DNA of 64,000 bases. Source: Hyperoplus lanceolatus (lineage: Eukaryota; Chordata; Actinopteri; Uranoscopiformes; Ammodytidae). Under the pieces are notes generated by a model, which ran no database searches, was not told where the DNA came from, and was given only the letters and a program-made list of their open reading frames with translations. The stretch lies in NCBI GenBank assembly GCA_026929865.2, contig CM049395.1, forward strand, positions 17,667,501 through 17,731,500, in the 5' to 3' direction. The translations under genes and the position numbers were made by a program. Shown in pieces: positions 1 to 58,159 of this stretch (the stretch's first letter is position 1; each line of letters begins with the position of its first letter).

Positions 1-251
1 TGTGCTTGCAAACAAAGGCTTTGCCACTAAGTATTGAGTGTGTTTGGCCAGAGGGATCAAATACTTATTTCCCTCAATGATATACAAATTAATTAAAATA
101 TATTCTTTAAAGTTATTTTCTGGAATTTCTTTTTGATATTGTCTCTCCATGTTTGAATACATATTATCATAAATTTATAGACTGATCATGTCTTTATTAG
201 TGGGCAAACCGGCAAAATCAGCAAGGGATCAAATACATATTGGACTCACTG

Positions 252-256
<5 letters not shown>

Positions 257-285
<29 letters not shown>

Positions 286-484
286 TGTATGTATGTATGT
301 ATGTATGTATGTATGTATGTATGTATGTATGTATGTATGTATGTATGTATGTATGTATGTATGTATGTATGTATGTATGTATGTATGTATGTATGTATGT
401 ATGTATGTATGTATGTATGTATGTATGTATGTATGTATGTATGTATGTATGTATGTATGTATGTATGTATGTATGTATGTATGT
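257..484. repeat. (ATGT)57 tetranucleotide microsatellite
   Basis: An uninterrupted run of 57 ATGT units covering 228 bp. Because 4 and 3 are coprime, the run stays open in all frames and yields spurious MYVC- or IHTY-repeat open frames on both strands; none is a gene. The lack of interruptions suggests a young, length-variable locus, or an assembly artefact in copy number. Confidence 0.97.
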
Positions 485-1170: not shown

Positions 1171-3168
1171 TAGGGCTGGGCGATTAATTGAAATTCAATT
1201 TCGATCACGATTTTGGCTTCCCTCGATCATGAAAACAAGATAATCGTAATAAAAAGAGTATTGTGTCACACGCCGTGTCTTGTGTGGTAAATGCAGCGAA
1301 CCCTTCTATGTGCGCTCTGCCCCGCCCGAACACTTTCGCTTTCAGCGATTGCAGTGTAATGGTTTATTCAGCATAAAGTTAAAGTACTTTTCCAAGACTG
1401 ATGTTAAGTTGAATCACAAACGCCTTGCGCGAGCGAAATAGCAAGTTGCCAGTTGAAATTCCGTGGCGGTGGGTAACGGTGTCATTCACAGTAGCCCCTT
1501 TTACACAGCCAGTGAAAGCCGGGAATATGCTGGAATTTCGGCCCTCAGCCCTGCTGTATAAATGCGACTGTTGCGGAAGGAGGGAAGAAAGGTGCGAGAG
1601 ATTGTTCCGGGAATTTTACTACCTCGGGGGGTAGTAAGATTCCCGACACAATCAGTTCCGCCTCTCTGTTTAAATGCGGCCAGCTTGTTGTTGCAGAACA
1701 GGGGGGCGTTTGACGTTCCATAGCCTACGTTCTAAACATGCGACCATGTTAGCAGTTGAAGGACGTGTGTTTAACATTAACCACGGCGGCCTGATGTCCT
1801 GTAAAAATCACCAAATAAAAGGAACGGCGTATAATCTAGCTGGTCATAAGGTCCGCTGCTCAATCCAAACCCCCATGCTTCATTTTGCAGAGTGTATGAG
1901 TCTATTTCTGCCCAGGGGAAGTTGTACAATGGGAAAGCTAGGCTAGGCTAAGCTAGGCTGCGACCAGTTACGTGACTTCACACACTGTGTGTCTGATTGG
2001 CAGATCGCTGCCCTTACAAAGAGACTCGCTCACAGCAAACCTGTCACACAAACACACACACACACACACAGACAGACACAGAGGTGAAGCAGTGAGCAGC
2101 GGAGTGATTTTTGTCATTTTGGTTAACAGTCCCAGAGATGTTGGCGTCGCGAGATCAACCGGCACATCGTGGGGACAGTAAAATACGGCCCTCTTACTGC
2201 AAGCTCCAGCACTTCTGCTCTCAATTCACCGGCCAGTGTTGTTTTGTAAAGCAGCTGACCGGCGTGGCGCTAAGTGTTTACGTCACACATGACGCTGTTT
2301 ACAAGCACCTCTTTCATTCCGGACGCTGTGTAAAAGGGGCTACTGATGCGCCAGCAGGCCGGCGTTGCTTGGTTCTGTGTAAATAACACAGAAGCAAGCA
2401 AAGCCGGCATATTGGAGTGATGTTGTTCCGTCAATATGCCGCAATCTCTGAGTAAAAGGGGCTAGTGATACCTCGCCAGTGTGAGCAGCCGCACAGAAAA
2501 GCCCTGTGGCTTTACGGCTAAAATGAACCGGGTATATCCTGCCCGTTAACGTTGTTGATGTGGAAGGCTTCCGCGATCGGATTGCATTTCTTGAGCCCGG
2601 ATACACAGAGCCATGTCGCAAAACTGACAGCGCGACAAGAGAAAATATACAGTGATCCGCCTCCCTCCGTTAGTTTCAGTCTACAACCGAACAAATTATA
2701 ATAACCACCACGGACATCGTTTAAATAAAGCCTCTTGTTTTTATGATCTTTAGGGCTTTGATGAAAATCCTGATGTCTGAATATTACATTGGCAGCTGCT
2801 GTGCAGTTTTTTTTCAGCAACTCAACCTGCACTGTAAAAAAAAAAAAAAAGGCAATGAGTTGATCTTTTTGTAGATTCACACCTCCTCAACGTGCAAATA
2901 AATGTGTTGTTCACAATCACATCCCTAGTAAAATGTTCATTTTAATCTTAGATTGGAAGGTTTCACTGTTTATTTATTTAGGGTGGCGTTTTAGTTGTAG
3001 GCTATGTTTGAGGAGCACATTTGGGAGTTTAATTTATGCAATATTGAAAGAATTTACAGAATTTTCAATTTGGGGCATCCCTACAGTGAATAATCGTCTT
3101 TAATAATCGTGATTACAATATCAATCAAAATAATCGTGATTATAATTTGCCATAATCGAGCAGCCCTA
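1171..3168. mobile_element. Non-autonomous hAT-type DNA transposon with 8-bp target duplication
   Basis: The left end starts TAGGGCTGGGCGATTAATTG and the right end, read in reverse complement, starts TAGGGCTGCTCGATTATGG. The flanks carry the same 8 bp, CTTGAGGT, at 1163-1170 and 3169-3176, the target-duplication length expected of hAT transposases. No transposase frame is present. A further repeat with CCCCTTTTACACAG-type ends occupies 1489-2467 inside it. The element itself inserted into a SINE-like sequence that continues after 3176. Confidence 0.85.
1489..2467. mobile_element. Nested repeat, copy 1 of a family also at 47.7 kb and 57.7 kb
   Basis: It begins CAGTAGCCCCTTTTACACAG and ends in the near-reverse complement, CTGAGTAAAAGGGGCTAGTG, so it has inverted termini. 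A second terminus-like copy lies at about 2328-2347. The interior is closely similar to 57731-60034, over nearly its whole length, and partly to 47690-47975. It lies inside the hAT element 1171-3168. I saw no transposase and no clear target duplication. The starting bases suggest hAT affinity, but that is tentative. Confidence 0.7.
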
Positions 3169-12081: not shown

Positions 12082-13371
12082 GCATTTTGTGAGAAAATAT
12101 GGGTGGACCTCTCAAAAATTGCAACAGAAGCCATTTAAACTGTTTTTGACTCATGAATATGTAATTAATAACATACTAAAAGTCTTAAGGAATCCAAGTG
12201 GTGGAAAGTTATTTTCTAAGGGGTTTCTTAACCATACCTTTAAGTCAATTTTCGGCTTCCTAAAGTACTGTTTTATGGTAGATGGGATATGTGCAAAATT
12301 GTTAACCTTTTCAGAAAAGCTTGAAACTTGGTACACTTATACAGTTTGGGGCTCTGAACATTTTCAGATACTAAGCCATTGCAACATTGAATCATGGTTG
12401 CTATGGAGACCATTTTACTTTCCCCCATAGCCTAATTATGCATTTTTCATCATAACTCCTGAACCAAACATAATACCACATAACTAGTGATGTCTAACCC
12501 TATGTTTTCATGGTCAGGGATTACTATGATACCACACAACATCAGAAACAGTTAAGGTCAATAGTTAAGGGTGAATCCAATGATATTTTTTTTAAATATA
12601 TACATACATTCTTTTCTGATATTACTGTGGACTCATTACTGTCCATATCAACCGACAACTTTGTTTAACAAGAGATATGGTACAATGCATGTGCAAATAA
12701 ATGATTGACTATGAAGTCATAATATTGATTTGATTTAACTTTCTTGCCATAAATGTATTAAATGTTTTCAAGATAACAATGTCAAGTTATTTTTGGGTAA
12801 ATGTTGCCTTTATTAGTTAGAGAGAGAGATCAGAACCATATGATCCGACAGCAGACCTGGAACTCATGGAAAACTGCCATCCTGTTTGTCTCACAAAGGC
12901 CAGCATGGTCTAGTATGATGCAATTTGCACAGCATGGCAATCACCTGGGGTAAACATCCTTTGTGTTTACCCCATTGGTTGATATGAGACGTAGTGACCC
13001 TACATGCATCTACTCCGCATGTAAGTTCCTATGTGAACATGCCCACTGCCACAATTCCACCCCAATCATCAAATTTTATCAACCAGCAACGAGCAACCAC
13101 TGGTGGAAGGCATTTTCTTATGAAAGCAGTTGAGCCAGAGGTTAGTGACTTGGGGGCTTTCACACTGATATTAGTTGTTGGGGTCCATTGGGCATGTTAT
13201 GGTTGATGCTGGGAAGAGGAAGTGATAATGATTTTCTATGCAGCCATTGTGCACATTATGACAAGGAAGATGTTTGGATGGGATTTGCATTGAAAGAGTC
13301 CTTAATTGCCTGATTCTGCCTGATGCACTTGTTGTAACTCCCCATTAGCTGCAAGGAGATCCAAAATACTA
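12082..13371. other. Intergenic, no gene recognised
   Basis: AT-rich sequence between the mariner remnant and the Tc1 element. A frame of 113 codons at 12089-12430 has no recognisable similarity and is probably chance. I see no firm feature. Confidence 0.5.
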
Positions 13372-13656
13372 CACTCAACAAAAATAGAAACGCAACACTT
13401 TTGTTCTTGCTCCCATTTTTCATGAGATGGACTTAAAGATCTAAAATTCATTCCAGATACACAATATTACCATTTCTCTCAAACATTGTTGACACATCTG
13501 TCTAAATGTGTGATAGTGAGCACTTCTGCTTTGCTGAGATAATCCATCCCACCTCACTGGTGTGCCACATCAAGATGCTGATCTGACATCATTTTTAGTG
13601 CACAGGTGTGCCTTAGACTGTCCACAATAAAAGGCCACCCTGAAATGTGCAGTTTT
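13372..13656. repeat. Left terminal inverted repeat of the Tc1 element
   Basis: About 285 bp pairing with 14713-14998. It includes the outer CACTCAACAAAAATAG end and an inner block around AAGGCCACCCTGAAATGTGC. The repeat runs up to about 15 bp before the transposase start. Confidence 0.9.
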
Positions 13657-13669
13657 GTCTCACAGCAAA

Positions 13670-14614
13670 ATGCCACAGATGCCACAAGCATTGAGGGAGC
13701 GTGCAATTGGCATGCTGACAGCAGGAATGTCAACCAGATCTGTTGCTCGTGCATTGAATGTTAATTTCTCCACCATAAGCCGTCTCCAAAGGCGTTTCAG
13801 AGAATATGGCAGTACATCCAACCGGCCTCACAACCGCAGACCACGTGTAACCACACCAGCCCAGGACCTCCACATCCAGCAGGTTCACCTCCAAGATCGT
13901 CTGAGACCAGCCACTGAGACAGCTGCTGAAACAATTGGTTTGCATAACCAAACAATTTCTGCACAAACCGTCAGAAACCGTCTCAGGGAAGCTCAACTGC
14001 ATGCTCGTCGTCCTCATCGGGGTCTTGACCTGACTCCAGCTCGTCGCCGTAAAAGACTTGAGTGGGCAAATGCTCACATGCGATGGCGTCTGGCACGTTG
14101 GAGAGGTGTTCTCTTCACGGATGAATGTCGGTTTACATTGTTCAGGGCAGATGGCAGACAGCGTGTGTGGCGTCGTGTGGGTGAGCGCTTTGCTGATGTC
14201 AATGTTGTGGATCGAGTGGCCCATGGTGGTGGTGGGGTTATGGTATGGGCAGGCATCTGTTATGGACGAAGAACACAGGTGCATTTTATTGATGGCATTT
14301 TGAATGCACAGAGATACCGTGATGAGATCCTGAGGCCCATTGTTGTGCCATACATCCATGAACATCACCTCACGTTTCAGCAAGATAATGCACGGCCCCA
14401 TGTTGCAAGGATCTGTACACAATAATTGGAAGCTGAAAATTTCCCAGTTCTTGCATGGCCAGCATACTCACCGGACATGTCACCCATTGAGCATGTTTGG
14501 GATGTGCTTGACCGGCGTATACGACAGCGTGCACCACTTCCCACTAATATCCAGCAACTTCGCACAGCCATTGAAGAGGAGTGGGCCAACATTCCACAGG
14601 CCACAATTGACTGA
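13670..14614 (+). pseudogene. Tc1 transposase, one nonsense codon and a 3' frameshift
   Basis: The enzyme would bind the inverted repeats and cut and paste the element. The start is taken at ATG 13670 (MPQMPQALRER). An N-terminal helix-turn-helix region, including MSTRSVARALNVNFSTIS, is followed by a basic RPHNRRPRVTT segment. The DDE catalytic residues are all visible: D151 in FTDECRF, D239 in QQDNARPH and E274 in SPIEHVWD, with 34 residues between the last two. A TAA at 14423-14425 interrupts the frame between D239 and E274. The frame is the same on both sides, so this is one point lesion. After position 14605 a small deletion shifts the remaining tail out of frame. As it stands the copy should be inactive, though its ends could respond to a transposase supplied elsewhere. 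Confidence 0.9.
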
Positions 14615-14712
14615 TAAACTCTATGCGAAGAAGATGTGTTGCACTGCATGAGGCAAATGGTGGTCACACCAGATACTGACTGGTTCTGAGTCCCCAGACC
14701 CCCAATAAAGCA

Positions 14713-14998
14713 AAAAAATGCACATTTCAGAGTGGCCTTTTATTGTAGACAGTCTAAGGCACACCTGTGCACTAATCATGATGTCAGATCAGCATCTTGA
14801 TGTGGCACACCTGTGAGGTGGGATGGATTATCTCAGCAAAGCAGAAGTGCTCACTATCACACATTTAGACAGATTTGTGAACAATGTTTCAGAGAAATGG
14901 TAATATTGTGTATCTGGAATGAATTTTAGATCTTTAAGTCCATCTCATGAAAAATGGGAGCAAAAACAAAAGTGTTGCGTTTATATTTTTGTTGAGTG
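14713..14998. repeat. Right terminal inverted repeat of the Tc1 element
   Basis: Near reverse complement of 13372-13656, ending TTTTTGTTGAGTG before the TA at 14999. Confidence 0.9.
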
Positions 14999-15216
14999 TA
15001 TATACCTGGGCACTTGAGGCGGATGGGAGTTAGGAGACAAAGGGGGTTAGTGGCGCACCTGATATTTTCTGTTTACCGTCAAACAACCATCAAATTATCG
15101 TCAAACTAGCGTCAATTACAACAGTTTATCTTTTCTTTATTTGTTTTCAATACCCTCGTTATGTTTTCAATACCCTCGTTATGTTTTCATTCATCCGTTG
15201 TTATCAAGATTGCAAG

Positions 15217-18200
15217 ATGGCCGCCGTGCAGTCACACAGGTTGGCAGGCTCTGTGTGTATGCCAAAAAAACAAACTAAAAACCTCAAAAGATATCGGCTT
15301 TTGCCATCTACATGTCTCTTTATTGCTTTAGTATGTTCTTATCTACTCTTGTGCTTAACATTCACACAACAAATGGATAAAAACAGTGAACAAGTCCTCT
15401 ACCCAGCAAAGAAGAGTCAACACCTGCTCTACACAAAACTACTGGACAATGGACGTGCAAGGCTACCCTCAGGTAAAGATGAACAGTCAGACCAACTTAA
15501 ACCTTTCCTGGGAATTGCACATGTTCTGATGATACTGCTCCTGGCTGGCGATATTGAAATTAATCCTGGACCTTCAATGAACTCTTATTACCTGGATGCT
15601 AAACCACCACAGCTAACAGGGCCACTGCTAAGTGGGCCACAACTACAGCTAATTGGGATACAATCATGGCCAACAGGCCTTGATTTAACTGGGCAACAAC
15701 CACACCTAGCAGGGTTACAATTACAGCTAGCCAGGCTTCATCCTCAGTTAACTGGGCTACAAGCACTACCAGCCAGGCTACAGCCGCAGCCCACCGGGCT
15801 ACATCCTCAGCTAGCTGGGCTACATCCTCAGCTAGCCAGGCTACATCCTCACCTAACTGGGCTACATCCAAAGCCAGCCTGGCTTCAACCACGGCCAGCC
15901 GGGCTTCAACCTCAACCACAGCCAGCCGGGCTTCAACCACGGCCAGCCGGGCTTCAACCTCAACCACAGCCAGCCGGGCTTCAACCACAGCCAGCCGGGC
16001 TTCAACCACGGCCAGCCGGGCTTCAACCACGGCCAGCCGGGCTTCAACCTCAACCACAGCCAGCCGGGCTTCAACCACGGCCAGCCGGGCAACAACCACA
16101 GCCAGCCGGGCAACAACCACAGCCAGCCGGGCTTCAACCACGGCCAGCCGGGCTTCAACCTCAACCACGGCCAACTGGGCTTCAACCACAGCCAGCCGGG
16201 CCTCAACCACAGCCAGCCGGGCTTCAACCACAGCCAGCCGGGCTTCAACCACGGCCAACTGGGCTTCAACCACAGCCAGCCGGGCTTCAACAACGGCCAA
16301 CTGGGCTTCAACCTCAACCGCAGCCAACTGGGCTTCAACCTCAACCACGGCCAACTGGGCTTCAACCACAGCCAGCCGGGCTTCAACCACAGCCAAATGG
16401 GCTTCAACCACAGCCAGCCAGGCAACAACCACAGCCAGCCAGGCAACAACCACAGCCAGCCAGGCAACAACCACAGCCAGCCGGGCTTCAACCACAGCCA
16501 GCCAGGCAACAACCACAGCCAGCCGGGCTTCAACCACAGCCAGCCGGGCTTCAACCACAGCCAGCCGGGCTTCAACCACAGCCAGCCGGGCTTCAACCAC
16601 AGCCAGCCGGGCTTCAACCACGGCCAACTGGGCTTCAACCACAGCCAGCCGGGCTTCAACAACGGCCAACTGGGCTTCAACCTCAACCGCAGCCAACTGG
16701 GCTTCAACCTCAACCACGGCCAACTGGGCTTCAACCACAGCCAGCCGGGCTTCAACCACAGCCAAATGGGCTTCAACCACAGCCAGCCAGGCAACAACCA
16801 CAGCCAGCCAGGCAACAACCACAGCCAGCCAGGCAACAACCACAGCCAGCCGGGCTTCAACCACAGCCAGCCAGGCAACAACCACAGCCAGCCGGGCTTC
16901 AACCACAGCCAGCCGGGCTTCAACCACAGCCAGCCGGGCTTCAACCACAGCCAGCCGGGCTTCAACCACAGCCAGCCAGGCAACAACCACAGCCAGCCGG
17001 GCTTCAACCACAGCCAGCCGGGCTTCAACCTCAACCACAGCCAGCTGGGCTTCAACCTCAACCAGCCGGGCAACAACCACGGCAAAAGGTCTACACAGTG
17101 GTGACTCAGTCTGCCATGCAGTCTGATACGCATGTTGACCCACAGCGTGTCGGACTGCAGGGCAGAGTGAAACACGCAATCAGTGAATCCTGCAAACACA
17201 GTGGTCGCGCTGAAGGTAAACAGAGACAATTTAGATTCTTCCAGACTGTAAATCATGCAAAGGTCATATGGGACTCAAAGACAAAACCAAAGGGTATTGT
17301 AGGAGGACACTTGAACATTCGAAGTATTATTTCAAAACAAGATCAGGTTCAACACCTATTAACAGACTCCAATCTAGATTATTTATGTTTGACTGAAACA
17401 TGGCTTAACTGTAATATCCCAACACATATGATTGATGTACCAGGTTATGTATGCTTTAGGAAAGATAGATTGATGGGTAGGGGGGGTGGAGCAATGATCT
17501 ATATAAGAGAGAGTTTTAAATGTAATGAAATTAATCTGGACACACCTTTGGAGTGTATTGCTATTAATGTTGTGTTGTCAACAAAAATGAAATTCAATAT
17601 TGTAACCCTATATAATCCTCCATCGCATGGTGCCTCATTTTACCAGGATTTAGACGAACTACTTAAACAACTAAATTGTAGCTGTGAAACTATATTTTTG
17701 GGAGACTATAATATAAACTGGTTGCACAAAGGCAGCAAGCAAAAATTAAAAACAATCTATTCAAAGCATAATTTTCAGCAAATGATCAAAGGACCAACAA
17801 GACTAACTAAAGTCAGCAAAACCCTCATTGACTTGGTCTTTACAAATAGAATTGAGAGAGTGACAAAGACATACAATTTAATCACAGGCCTGTCTGACCA
17901 TAATATGATTTTAATAGTTAGAAAACTAACCAAAAAACGTCTAAAATCCTGGTGCAATGGTAAACCAGAGTTTGCAGGTATTCCAAAGAACAAAACAACA
18001 CAATTTGAAAACGACTTACGGAATATTTCTTGGGATGATGTTATACAATCTCACAATGTAAACACCTGTTGTGATACAATGATGAAAACATTTACTGATC
18101 TGATGCAGAAATACACTCAGAAATTGAGAAAGCCACGTCGTCCCAGGGCTTTACCGTGGTTAAATAAGGATATTCATCAACTAATGAAGAAAAGGGATTT

Positions 18201-20109
18201 TGCACTTAAACAGTCACTGGTAACAAAAAATTATTCAGACACACTTATTTTCAAAGGTTTAAGAAATAAGGTAACAAAGGAGTTGCGTATGGCAAAAACC
18301 TGTTACTTTGTGCAACTAATTGCTGACTCAAAAGGGAAAAGCTCAGCAATCTGGAAACATCTAAATACTTTGACTAATCGGGCACCAAATATGAAAAGAT
18401 CGAATGTGGAATTAAATATAAATGGAACAGTTAGTAATGATGTATTGGAAATTGCAAATGAATTTAATACATTTTTCATAAAATCAGTTGAGGAACTGGC
18501 AACTAATTTCCGACCAATTGAGTTTGAGGATATACAGAGAGATCTCTCGACTTCTTTTCATATTAAAGAGGTCAATCAAAGTGAGATTGGTAAAGTTATA
18601 ATGGAGTTACGGCAATCTAAGGCTAAGGATTATTTTGGATTGGATTCTTTAATTATTAAAAAACACAGTTCTGTTGTTCAAGTGCCAGTGACTCATGTTG
18701 TCAACTGCTCCATCAGAAGCAACACATTTCCTGAGCCCTGGAAAAAGGCAATTATAACTCCCATTCACAAGTCTGGTTCACCTGACCTGGTCTCTAATTA
18801 TAGGCCAATTTCTATCTTGCCTGCACTCTCAAAAGTTCTTGAGAAAACAGTTGCTAAACAACTTGTGGATTACTTAGAAAATAAACATCTACTGCACCCC
18901 AAACAATTTGGATTCAGAGCAAGGTACTCAACAGAGTTGGCAAACTGCTACCTCACTGAAACTATAAAACAGTTGTTAGATGAGGGGAATGTAGTGGTGG
19001 CAGTATTCTTGGATTTGAAAAAAGCCTTTGATACCGTTAACCATGGAATTCTCCTTAATAAACTCAAAACATTTAATTTCTCAGATGAGGCAATTGCTTG
19101 GTTCCGTTCATATCTTAAACATAGAGAGCAGTGGGTTAGATCTAATTCTACCCTGTCAACTGTCCAGACTTGTTCAATGGGAATTCCACAGGGTTCTATT
19201 TTAGGCCCTTTACTTTTTAGCTTATATATTAATGATTTACCGGACAGTTGTAAAAAAGCCAGATGCCAAATGTATGCAGACGACACCGTGGTATTTGTGT
19301 CTGCAAAAACGACTCAGTTGGCAGCTAAAACTCTGTCAGAGGAGATGTCTGGTGTATCCCAGTGGCTCAGAAACAATCATTTGACCTTAAATTATAAAAA
19401 GACAGTGTCAATGTGCTTTTCAATTAAAAGAAAAGCCAATGAAAATTCCAGAGTAAAAATTGATGAGATAGAGATAGATCAAGTAGATGAGTTCAAATTC
19501 TTAGGTGTTGTTCTAGATTCTCAACTTAAATTTAACAGACATGTTAAGAAGCTATGCAAGACTGTCAAGACCAACTTAAATTGCTTTCGCCTTATAAGAC
19601 AATATATACCTCTTAAGGCAGCACAACAATTTATGCATGCCATGATATTCTCCCATTTGTCATACTGTATAACCGTTTGGGGTCAAGCCAACCAAACAAC
19701 AATGACACCAATACAATCATTATACAAACAGGCACTTAAAATAATGGATCAGAAACCTACAAGATGGCACCATTGCCAAATTTTAAAGAAACACAATTTG
19801 CTGAGTTTTGACAGCTTTTTAAACTTTTCATTTTTAAAGATAATGTTCAAGTGTGTGAACAACCTTGCTCCAGAAATACTCTGCCAAATGATAAATAAAC
19901 TGGACAGCAGAATTAGAACTAGGGGTGCAACCAGCGGAAATTGTAGAACAGCCAGACGCAAAACCACATTCGGACAATCATCCTTTGTAGCAATAGGCAC
20001 TAAACTATGGAATACACTACCAACAGAAATCAAAACATTGACAGAGCTCAAGGTTTTTAACTCACAAGTAAAACAATGGTTGAAACTGAATAAACCCTGT
20101 GAACATTGA
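15217..20109 (+). CDS. LINE polyprotein: 2A-like motif, QPQPAGL repeats, endonuclease, reverse transcriptase
   Basis: The frame is open from ATG 15181 (1642 codons); the ATG at 15217 (codon 13, context AAGATGG) fits a vertebrate start better. Residue numbers below count from 15181. In order: a hydrophobic segment at about 44-61; a second at about 108-122; a 2A-like GDIEINPGP at 123-131; degenerate then homogeneous heptad repeats from about 150 to 635; an endonuclease at about 705-910 with N712, E739 in LTETW, D842 and N844 in GDYN, and S905-D906-H907; and a reverse transcriptase from about 1180, with D1278 in FLDLKKAFD, GIPQGSILGPLLF, and YADD at 1365-1368. It would nick target DNA and copy its own RNA there. 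No CCHC knuckle or ORF1-like RNA-binding domain was seen. All catalytic motifs are intact with no stop or frameshift, so the copy may be active or very young. Confidence 0.92.
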   Translation: MAAVQSHRLAGSVCMPKKQTKNLKRYRLLPSTCLFIALVCSYLLLCLTFTQQMDKNSEQVLYPAKKSQHLLYTKLLDNGRARLPSGKDEQSDQLKPFLGIAHVLMILLLAGDIEINPGPSMNSYYLDAKPPQLTGPLLSGPQLQLIGIQSWPTGLDLTGQQPHLAGLQLQLARLHPQLTGLQALPARLQPQPTGLHPQLAGLHPQLARLHPHLTGLHPKPAWLQPRPAGLQPQPQPAGLQPRPAGLQPQPQPAGLQPQPAGLQPRPAGLQPRPAGLQPQPQPAGLQPRPAGQQPQPAGQQPQPAGLQPRPAGLQPQPRPTGLQPQPAGPQPQPAGLQPQPAGLQPRPTGLQPQPAGLQQRPTGLQPQPQPTGLQPQPRPTGLQPQPAGLQPQPNGLQPQPARQQPQPARQQPQPARQQPQPAGLQPQPARQQPQPAGLQPQPAGLQPQPAGLQPQPAGLQPQPAGLQPRPTGLQPQPAGLQQRPTGLQPQPQPTGLQPQPRPTGLQPQPAGLQPQPNGLQPQPARQQPQPARQQPQPARQQPQPAGLQPQPARQQPQPAGLQPQPAGLQPQPAGLQPQPAGLQPQPARQQPQPAGLQPQPAGLQPQPQPAGLQPQPAGQQPRQKVYTVVTQSAMQSDTHVDPQRVGLQGRVKHAISESCKHSGRAEGKQRQFRFFQTVNHAKVIWDSKTKPKGIVGGHLNIRSIISKQDQVQHLLTDSNLDYLCLTETWLNCNIPTHMIDVPGYVCFRKDRLMGRGGGAMIYIRESFKCNEINLDTPLECIAINVVLSTKMKFNIVTLYNPPSHGASFYQDLDELLKQLNCSCETIFLGDYNINWLHKGSKQKLKTIYSKHNFQQMIKGPTRLTKVSKTLIDLVFTNRIERVTKTYNLITGLSDHNMILIVRKLTKKRLKSWCNGKPEFAGIPKNKTTQFENDLRNISWDDVIQSHNVNTCCDTMMKTFTDLMQKYTQKLRKPRRPRALPWLNKDIHQLMKKRDFALKQSLVTKNYSDTLIFKGLRNKVTKELRMAKTCYFVQLIADSKGKSSAIWKHLNTLTNRAPNMKRSNVELNINGTVSNDVLEIANEFNTFFIKSVEELATNFRPIEFEDIQRDLSTSFHIKEVNQSEIGKVIMELRQSKAKDYFGLDSLIIKKHSSVVQVPVTHVVNCSIRSNTFPEPWKKAIITPIHKSGSPDLVSNYRPISILPALSKVLEKTVAKQLVDYLENKHLLHPKQFGFRARYSTELANCYLTETIKQLLDEGNVVVAVFLDLKKAFDTVNHGILLNKLKTFNFSDEAIAWFRSYLKHREQWVRSNSTLSTVQTCSMGIPQGSILGPLLFSLYINDLPDSCKKARCQMYADDTVVFVSAKTTQLAAKTLSEEMSGVSQWLRNNHLTLNYKKTVSMCFSIKRKANENSRVKIDEIEIDQVDEFKFLGVVLDSQLKFNRHVKKLCKTVKTNLNCFRLIRQYIPLKAAQQFMHAMIFSHLSYCITVWGQANQTTMTPIQSLYKQALKIMDQKPTRWHHCQILKKHNLLSFDSFLNFSFLKIMFKCVNNLAPEILCQMINKLDSRIRTRGATSGNCRTARRKTTFGQSSFVAIGTKLWNTLPTEIKTLTELKVFNSQVKQWLKLNKPCEH
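15547..15573 (+). other. 2A-like ribosome-skipping motif (GDIEINPGP) within the LINE frame
   Basis: Residues 123-131 match the 2A consensus D-x-E-x-N-P-G-P exactly; skipping would occur between G130 and P131. A hydrophobic stretch, FLGIAHVLMILLLA, directly precedes it. 2A-like motifs are known from several non-LTR retrotransposons. Here the motif would release an N-terminal peptide of about 118-130 residues from the repeat-endonuclease-reverse transcriptase part. Function is inferred from the motif. Confidence 0.8.
15700..17090 (+). repeat. 21-bp coding minisatellite (QPQPAGL heptads) with a 369-bp higher-order duplication
   Basis: Units are 21 bp (GGGCTTCAACCACAGCCAGCC and variants) with 27-bp variants (extra QP pair) and QQPQPAG/R variants. 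All are multiples of three, so the frame is kept. The 5' edge is diverged while the core is nearly uniform. A mixed block around 16241-16600 recurs exactly 369 bp later, around 16610-16970, showing a recent duplication of a multi-unit block. The units lack stop codons in other frames too, which produces long spurious frames on both strands. Confidence 0.95.
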
Positions 20110-20375
20110 CACACACTCACATACACACATTAATCATTGTCCTTGTTTTTATTGTTTTTATTTATTTTTTTTTTTTTATTTTTTGTTTGTTTTATGTCTA
20201 TTATGTATGATCCCTGTATTTGTATTCATGTGAATTTTTTTAGGAGATGCCTAATCAGGGACAGGGGTTGCAAATTAGTTTCGACTAACACCTGTATGCG
20301 TGGCATCTGTTTTATGTTTTTATAATATGAAACAATGTTTTAATGCATTTGTCCTTAATAAAGAAATATCATATT

Positions 20376-44400: not shown

Positions 44401-47400
44401 TAGAAGGGCACAGACACCATCAAGCTCAAGGTCTGGCCCTGCTCGTGTTGCACACCAGCCTTCCAGCCCGAGGTCAAGGTCGCCACAGCCAGCAGCCTCA
44501 GTCTCCAGCTCGTGGAGCAGTGAAGGTCAGCCGGACATCCCTCCTGTACAAAAGAGGTTTGTCCCTGCAAGGCCCCCAGGACATCAGCTAAACCAGTCGT
44601 CGTCATACTCACCACTGGACATTTTCAGATTATTCATAGACGACCGGATTGCAACTAAAATATGCCAGAACAGTAACAGGCAGCAAGAAACATCGCCGCA
44701 GGGAGGAAGTTCTCCTGGGTACCCCTGACTGTTCAGGAGTTTTTGCGGTACCTGCGTCTGACTTTTTTTTTTTTTTGCCCTGTTCAAACTACCCAGTGTA
44801 AAGGATTACTGGAGGAAAGACAGCATATTCAGTCAGTCTTTTCCCCCCCAAGTGTCTTTTCCCGTGACCGATTCCTGATAATCAACTATAACGTGCACAT
44901 GAGCGACCCAGATGAAGACATTGAAAATGACCGGAAGAGGGGGACACCTGCACATGACCGGCTGTTCAGGCTGAAGCCCTTCATGGACAGCCTGAAAGAT
45001 TCTTGCAAGGCCTTCTATCATCCCAAGCAGAATCTTGCAGTTGATGAACGAATGGTTGCAACAAAGGCCCACACCGGCATGACACAATATATGAAGGCAA
45101 AGCCGACCAAGTGGGGCTTCAAACTGTTTGTCTTGGCTGACAGCAGCAATGGCTACACCATAGACTTTAATGTGTACAGGGGGCAAGTCACTGTTTGCTT
45201 CAGGTGTAGGACTTGCCTATGACTCTGTTATGTCCCTGATGGATAAAGCATACCTTGGCAGCGGCTACCACCTGTACGTGGACAATTTCTATACTAGCCC
45301 AAAGCTGTTCAAGGATCTGTACAGCCTTGGCTTTGGAGCATGCGGCACATACAGGGACAATAGGAAAGGATGCCACCGCCCAGCCAAAAATGCTCTGAAG
45401 AAGAAGGATCCCAGGGGCACAATCAGGTGGATCCGTGAAGACCCTGTAGTGTATACGAAGTGGATGGACACCCGTGAGCCTGCTCCACAATACACCAGGC
45501 GTTCTCAGGCGACACAGTGAAGAGGAGGTTCAAAGGTCCGAATGGCACCTGGGCCACCAAATCTATTCCGTGCCCAACCCCGGTCACAGAGTACAATAAG
45601 CACATGGGAGGGGTTGATTTATCCGATCAACTCATCCAATATTACTCTGTGCACCACAAAACCATGAGATGGTACAGGACATTGTTCCTCCATTTTTTGG
45701 ATATTGCCGCCACCAACAGCTACCTCATTCACAGGTGTTTTTGTGCAGAGAAGCAGGAACAGCCAATGACACACAGGGCCTTTCTGAAGGAGCTGACAGC
45801 CCAGCTCTGTGGGGTAACTGTAAAAATCCCTCCTGCTCGGAAACAGAGTGACCATGTCCCTGTCCCAACACGGGAGCAAGAAGATAAGACCAAGAGGGCG
45901 TCATATGGAAGGCTGACATGTTTACACTGCAGGCAGACAAGGCAGACCCGTCAGGCAACTCCCTGGAAATGCAAAGCCTGTAATGTGGCCCTCTGTATGA
46001 TTGCCGACAGAAACTGTTTTGAGGAGTGGCACATGTAAACGAGAACAAAAGCTTTTGGACTCTTCTTATAAAAATGTATATAGTTCAAATTAATGTAAGA
46101 AATGGATGATCTATGACAGTGAAAAAATGCACATGCAACAACTGATGTGTATATGTAAGTGTGTATATATATATATAACTTTTTGATGACTAGACACCTG
46201 TACATTTGACAGCCAATTTTTGTTTTATCTGTAATTTATGTTTACTGTAATACTATTATTTTTATTTAATTTGTAATGCATTTATTTAGATTTATTTATT
46301 TATTTTATCTATTTCAAGCAATTTTATTTGCCACTATTATTATTACTGTTATTATTTTATTTTCATGGTTCTATGACTAAGACAAAGTCACCTGTTCAAA
46401 TATAATGTAGCAATTGTATGAACAAAAAAAAAAAAAAGTTAAAAAAAAAATATATAGTTGTATAGCAGTTATGTTTTCCAAATAAGTTATACGGTTAATT
46501 TAATTTCAATGTTCATTGCCAGACTCCCAAGACAGGAGATGTGCTATAACCAACACAACCACATTACAAGCAGTGTGCAGTGTGTTTTCTAAATAAAAAA
46601 CTGGGAAATTCAATTTCCGCTTTCTCTTTTTATTTGTCTTTATGGTCCCATTACTATTTTGACATCCAACTGACATCACTGCAGCATGTATATTCATATA
46701 GGTTGTCCTGAAAACGTTCATAGCTTGATTTAACATCACAGGGAACATGTTTTACAGGGTTTTTTAGATGATACATCCAGACAGACCAGAAGTGGCTGGA
46801 ATGGCTGCAGGTCATTTGAAAATTAAATTTTTTATTTATTTTGGTTTTGGGTACATAATGTCCACATATTATGTCAAAGTGAAATAAAAACGGTCAGGAA
46901 ATGCAGGTGAAACTTTGTTGAAACAAAAGACTCCAAACACAGCAAGCTTAAACTTTTTTTTTATGTGCCCTCTGTGTCATGGTTGACAGAACTTTGAGGA
47001 TTTAGGGGAAAAAAAACGCCTATGTATGCACCTGCTATTTGGTAATAAAATTTGTATTTAGGTTGATGCCACCTCAATCAAACTTATACATTAGCACACT
47101 GACATCCCATGCATTTATTTTCAGCTTTCAAAAACCTTCTTTATGAATGTTTGTGTTACATATGGTTAAAATTGTATTTTTTGGAAATCCGTTTTATGTT
47201 TATTATGTGGTTTTGGGTCCAATATGATCATTTAATATATAAAAAAGAAATAAATAACTATCAGATCATATAGGTGAGGGTGTGCTGAACAGAAAGATAC
47301 TAAACATTGGCATGATAAACATTTCTTAATGTAGTCTAGTAAGGATAATTCAAAAGTATTCAAAAACAGCTAAAATAGCCCCAGGCCTCTGACGGTTAAA

Positions 47401-57730: not shown

Positions 57731-58159
57731 CCCCTTTTACACAGCCAGTGAAAGTCGGGAATATGCCAGAATTTCGGCCCTCCGCCCTGCTGTATAAATG
57801 CGACCATTGCGGAACGAGGGAAGAAAGGTGCGAGAGATTGTTCAGGGATTTTTACTACCTCGGGAGTAGTAAGATTCCCGACACAATCAGTTCCGCCTCT
57901 CTGTTTAAATGCGGCCAGCTTGTTGTTGCGGAACAGGGGGGCGTTTGACGTTCCATAGCCTACGTTCTAAACATACGACCATGTTAGCAGTTGAAGGACG
58001 TGTGTTTAACATTAACCACGGTGGCCTGATGTCCCGTAAAAATCACCAAATAAAAGGAACGGCGTATAATCTAGCTGGTCATAAGGTCCGCTGCTCAATA
58101 CAAACCCTCCACGCTTCATTTTGCAGAGTGTATGAGTCTATTTCTGCCAGGGGGAAGTT

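Follow-up and report, generated by a model that had tools for sequence, protein, structure and literature searches.

An open LINE frame and its family

The window, by which we mean the whole stretch of 64,000 nucleotides that was analysed, contains on its forward strand a frame that is open without interruption from 15217 to 20109 and that encodes, in this order, a leader, a 2A-like core, a heptad array, an APE-type endonuclease and a reverse transcriptase (RT). The leader (15217..15570) is the predicted upstream product of 118 aa and ends in NPG. It includes a first, signal-anchor-like hydrophobic segment after a basic stretch (TCLFIALVCSYLLLCLTFT, 15310..15366, mean hydropathy 2.22) and a second hydrophobic stretch leading into the core (15505..15573), for which motif scan and leader alignment predict skipping between Gly118 and Pro119. 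The coding heptad array (15697..17080, consensus L-Q-P-Q-P-A-G, recognised by a tandem-repeat call and by lag-7 identity) is followed by the endonuclease (17314..17910; PF14529, 5.8e-9, and PF03372, 9.3e-9) and the RT (18763..19512; PF00078, 5.5e-40), all of these matches lying beyond the Pfam cut-offs. The 3' UTR (20110..20371) carries AATAAA close to its end, and the homology of six other copies ends at 20366-20375. A sequence search of the PDB returned remote RT matches only, including group II intron and R2 RTs, and Rfam at gathering thresholds gave no match in the 64-kb window.

The longest ATG frame of the ORF call spans 15181..20109 (1642 aa); counted from 15217 the frame has 1630 aa and would yield skip products of 118 and 1512 aa. 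The unbroken frame reported in the preliminary description is real, and we prefer 15217, the start given there, to 15181 because in the seven window-family copies whose 5' end can be read the flanks are unrelated as far as CAAG-ATGG, and pairs of copies share just 4-6 bases upstream of the 15217 ATG (15 in the case of the window and L010). Both the window (15202..15212) and L010 have 11 extra bases, TATCAAGATTG, ahead of CAAGATGG, which are absent from the five other copies compared. The 5' end of the element together with its start codon (CAAGATGGCCGC, 15213..15224) is TISU/YY1-like: the window scores 11 of 12 against the consensus SAASATGGCGGC, and across the eight families that were scored the agreement lies between 8 and 11 of 12. 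Shared upstream bases in other families number 3-4 (L018-L020), eight (L027/L035), one (L022/L024) or none (L021/L026). From these insertion ends we infer that full-length copies begin about 4-6 bases before the ATG and that a 5' UTR is nearly absent. A YY1 site is likewise found at the start of human L1. In the part of the literature searched, titles and abstract openings gave no match that combines TISU and YY1 with retrotransposons.

The host assembly (a single one, with 527 contigs and 807 Mb, which its size and repeats suggest to be that of a fish) gave at least 51 matches to the endonuclease-RT (EN-RT) query, with 48 of 16670 candidates scored, and harbours at least eight related LINE families. 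The window family is present at no fewer than ten places, several of them 5' truncated, and we call the element young because its EN-RT is 99-100% identical at other places (85-97% for pieces on C21). The succession of APE endonuclease and RT domains, the dispersed copies, the 5' truncation (e.g. L011 and L013) and the common 3' end of six copies identify it as a LINE. No Pfam match was obtained for a separate ORF1 with an RRM, CCHC, PHD or esterase domain, and the single frame starts at the 5' end of the element. Target-site duplications were looked for in six elements, none of which showed an exact repeat of seven or more bases; inspection by eye shows the six bases ACAACT at both ends of L013. 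The superfamily is probably Jockey (CR1/L2/Rex1/Crack/Daphne group); the kinship tests compared families of one genome with each other.

Among the ten window-family places listed, the whole frame (there listed as 1691 aa) is open in the window copy only. A G-run (17480..17486) that has seven residues in the window has six in L009, L010, L011 and L012 and five in L028; these are the five that cover the run among six family copies compared, L013 being truncated beyond it. The four copies with six residues lose the frame exactly at this position, and L028, which is older, has breaks at several places. The difference in length may reflect common descent of defunct copies, programmed frameshifting or an error of assembly. 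The preliminary description was right in seeing a LINE frame that looks intact and in which a 2A motif precedes the array; the frame loss of the sister copies, the near-absent 5' UTR and the cassette exchange described below had escaped it.

Other repeats share the window. A Tc1/mariner-like element (13370..15000) precedes the LINE by about 200 bp, with 287-nt inverted ends that are 96% complementary and a transposase frame at 13631..14425. A broken piggyBac-like transposase occupies several frames of 44677..46035 (PF13843 at 2.4e-23, 7.5e-14 and 1.6e-11; zinc finger PF13842). A 246-nt direct repeat, 98% identical, is found at 1627..1872 and 57862..58107, 56 kb apart, and a TGTA tetranucleotide run of 58.8 copies (99% match) at 250..484.

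The heptad array

The array has a period of 21 bp and 63.3 copies (TRF score 1449), and at lag 7 its residues agree with a frequency of 0.59 (z 31.5 relative to 500 shuffles). A large heptad array had been described beforehand and is indeed present; the size of about 460 residues given for it has to be corrected to a heptad stretch of about 445 aa inside a linker of about 555 aa. The stretch parsed in the window consists of 52 heptads and nine units of 9 aa, units elsewhere being of 7 aa (L037) or of 7 or 8 aa (L036), and a 300-nt reference stretch (16161) recurs 369 nt further on (16530) at 99%. Lag-7 z values are 24.9 for L009, 25.9 for L010, 27.7 for L037, 18.4 for L029, which has two stops in the linker, and 8.3 for L036; the array also occurs in L032, where the frame is lost inside it, and in degraded form in L034. 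No heptad signal was detected in nine linkers of six families (L027, L035, L018, L020, L022, L023, L026, L025 and L017; z -0.7 to 1.1). The array is present in some families only, and its length and unit turn over: the linkers of L009 and L010 have 440 aa compared to about 556 in the window (116 codons shorter), linker lengths among families span 40 to 556 aa, and the unit drifts from LQPQPAG to LQPRPAG and LPPLLAG. Copies lacking the array, which the preliminary description had named as evidence against its reading, thus do exist in kin families; because these do without it, the array cannot generally replace ORF1, so that the earlier proposal of an array in place of a conventional ORF1 does not hold as a rule.

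Three further readings of the array were discarded. The same nine linkers rule out that it is a defining feature of such LINEs. A DUF1720 match above the Pfam cut-off is read as low complexity. The openness of the array is no proof of coding, since one other frame there is stop-free too and another has one stop.

Whether the array is a selfish coding minisatellite without function, tolerated as the unit length is divisible by three and the linker is free of constraint, is in our view evenly balanced. Its lack in six kin families, the different linker lengths of such close copies as the window, L009 and L010, the drift of the unit and the wide range of linker lengths are consistent with this explanation. 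However, the array is kept across families whose leaders are just 53-56% identical, with the pattern L-x-P-x-x-[AT]-[GR] partly preserved, and it travels along in the chimeric copies discussed below. We give clearly less weight to the possibility that the array takes over the function of ORF1p as a disordered tract of positive charge that binds or condenses the element RNA. This would agree with an array core of 396 aa that has 22 arginines and no acidic residue, with arginine at position 4 in 25 of the 34 units of L037 and with the lack of an ORF1-type domain by Pfam, whereas the array is missing from the other six families measured, whose linkers are shorter and nearly balanced in charge, and the linker of L036 holds just 16 basic residues in 289.

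The 2A-like motif and the leader

GDIEINPGP (15547..15573) is the sole D.E.NPGP sequence in the six frames of the window, which contain two further bare NPGP matches. A DNA pattern for GD[VI][EQ]xNPGP had 64 matches in the host genome and the reversed pattern, taken as control, had none; by hand count, the residue at p14 is E in 24 and Q in 40 of these matches. Since a 2A variant is carried by 16 of 20 loci chosen by EN-RT match, the only count free of motif-based row choice, the motif is a property of the LINE group and not of the window copy alone. Three of the four loci without it are truncated or rearranged window-family copies (L011, L012 and L013); the fourth is L016, whose family members L014, L015 and L017 carry 2A. 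Copies lacking the motif, which the preliminary description had regarded as evidence against its reading, are therefore not a feature of any family as a whole.

The residue at p14 is E in the window, L027/L035, L033, L034 and L032/L036 types and departs from E in five kin families: it is Q in four (L014/L015/L017, L021/L026, L022-L024 and L025) and H in one, L018-L020, a multi-copy family in which the core GDVHLNPGP is kept. According to section 9 of PMC12846837, viral 2A sequences have almost only E at this position and the rare H variant is active; Q is missing from the variants that are named there. Because four families have a residue that is absent from these named variants, the motif may not be active in every family. 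The natural Q and H variants of multi-copy families provide direct material on skipping.

When 12 leaders were aligned, eight of the nine invariant columns fell within LL.GD...NPGP, the ninth being Y72; these leaders had been found by D[VI][EQH].NPGP, which makes the invariance of D and NPGP partly a matter of construction and leaves the tyrosine, both leucines and the glycine as free evidence. It is unlikely that the motif is present without skipping and that the hydrophobic stretch is a second membrane segment of a protein that works as one fusion. In the leaders read, NPGP does come after a hydrophobic stretch, p14 is other than E in five families, and the choice of rows contributes to the apparent conservation; however, the hydrophobic stretch varies among families, yet the glycine preceding D and both leucines, all outside the search pattern, are fixed, and the window core DIEINPGP fits the D(V/I)ExNPGP criterion given in section 9 of PMC12846837.

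Pfam gave no match above cut-off for any of the four leaders searched, that of the window included. The AF2 model of the window leader is poor (pLDDT 59) and has a helix at 31-61, in the region of the first hydrophobic segment. The leader dN/dS is 0.38 between the window and L032, which represent two families. Within families it is 0.6-2.8 in five pairs with few changes, where no constraint is visible; the leaders of L032 and L036 differ by seven nonsynonymous and no synonymous changes. With a signal anchor in front of the 2A, skipping could become less efficient, or the downstream product could be pulled along to the ER.

The 5' cassette and its partners

Judged by sequence comparison, leader, 2A and array constitute a 5' cassette that is met with three EN-RT lineages. 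L029 and L037 are chimeras in which a window-type leader (95%), 2A and array are followed by an L027-type EN-RT at 98.3-98.5%, and both have one and the same junction with an ACA overlap. It is very improbable that they are assembly joins and not real elements: they come from a single genome assembly and both junctions adjoin the repeat array, but the same junction is found at two places, on two contigs (C7 and C5), with differing arrays and flanks.

The trees of the leader and EN-RT halves conflict. In AU tests, the EN-RT data reject {window, L036} (p 1.6e-91), and the leader data reject {window, L015} (9.9e-5) and {window, L015, L018} (7.5e-4); the leaders are short, and the tested clades were named after trees and searches had been seen. 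A 14-row leader tree joins the window-type and L032/L036 leaders (support 93/92); the 9-row leader tree is itself without the {window, L036} grouping and fails to reject that clade (p 0.42). The leader query gave 35 matches in the host genome, four at 100%, four at 92-95%, four at 53-56% (L032/L036 type) and 23 that were partial or weaker. The L014/L015 and L018 families, which are the nearest EN-RT kin of the window (54-58%), are absent from these 35 matches. Because of this wider discordance between leader and EN-RT trees, the window element, too, may have arisen by an older recombination.

We conclude, with a probability of roughly three in four, that the element is a young LINE, a non-LTR retrotransposon of the APE type, in which 2A ribosome skipping probably divides the single frame and in which leader, 2A and array form a mobile 5' cassette. 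Transcription would start at the TISU/YY1-like site, no more than a few bases from the ATG. The ribosome would make the 118-aa leader with its signal-anchor-like segment and then skip at NPG/P, as the canonical motif and its recurrence suggest. The leader would stay a separate, probably membrane-bound peptide, and the 1512-aa array-endonuclease-RT protein would be freed to reach RNA and nucleus. We take the array to be a disordered linker that bears arginines but no acidic residues, that has grown through turnover of its repeats and that may help to bind RNA. The passage of the cassette between EN-RT lineages, documented by the chimeras, would most simply proceed by template switching in reverse transcription; a switch from L027-type RNA to window-type RNA would fit copying from the 3' end. 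That the cassette repeatedly captures new EN-RT partners, with the array as a fast-evolving, arginine-bearing disordered ORF1 substitute and the 2A-released leader anchoring translation at membranes, is a rather doubtful extension of this model. For the question of how one-frame LINEs manage without ORF1, a recently active array family, array-less kin and a natural chimera make the roles of leader, 2A and array separable.

Odon et al. reportedly described in 2013 (Mol Biol Evol) 2A sequences in single-frame APE LINEs, located between the N-terminal and enzyme parts and going with one-ORF elements. APE endonuclease, RT and 2A are alike in those elements, for which neither a heptad array nor cassette exchange is known to have been described. 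The idea of one frame giving two products without a separate ORF1, put forward in the preliminary description, thus had a precedent of the same layout. Single-ORF L2 sub-clades exist in fish as well (PMC7140322) and are alike in having one ORF and teleost hosts, with 2A or an array unmentioned in the part of that source considered. In the literature searched (titles and abstract openings of a part of it), we found no description of a proline-rich heptad array in LINEs. Within the same bounds, the array-bearing cassette, its exchange and the TISU-like, near-absent 5' UTR appear to be new.

TISU initiators, according to the part of PMC2518114 consulted, drive initiation on very short 5' UTRs and bind YY1; the AAG-ATGG start, the YY1 match and the very short 5' UTR are alike in the present element, where the latter is deduced from insertion ends. 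The N-terminal stretch of sea urchin NLR proteins combines a signal with 2A, and its products are split between the exocytic pathway and the cytoplasm (Roulston et al. 2016, PMC4981915, as far as the excerpt goes); there the 2A is at the protein N-terminus, whereas here it ends a 118-aa LINE leader. In the Jockey superfamily, 5' modules are thought to have been exchanged between ORF2 lineages, and some elements are apparently single-ORF (Metcalfe and Casane 2014, PMC4120745, in the sections considered). In contrast to this modular ORF1, no RRM, CCHC, PHD or esterase domain is detected by Pfam here, and the swapped unit, of whose exchange there is a recent case, lies within a single frame and comprises leader, 2A and array.
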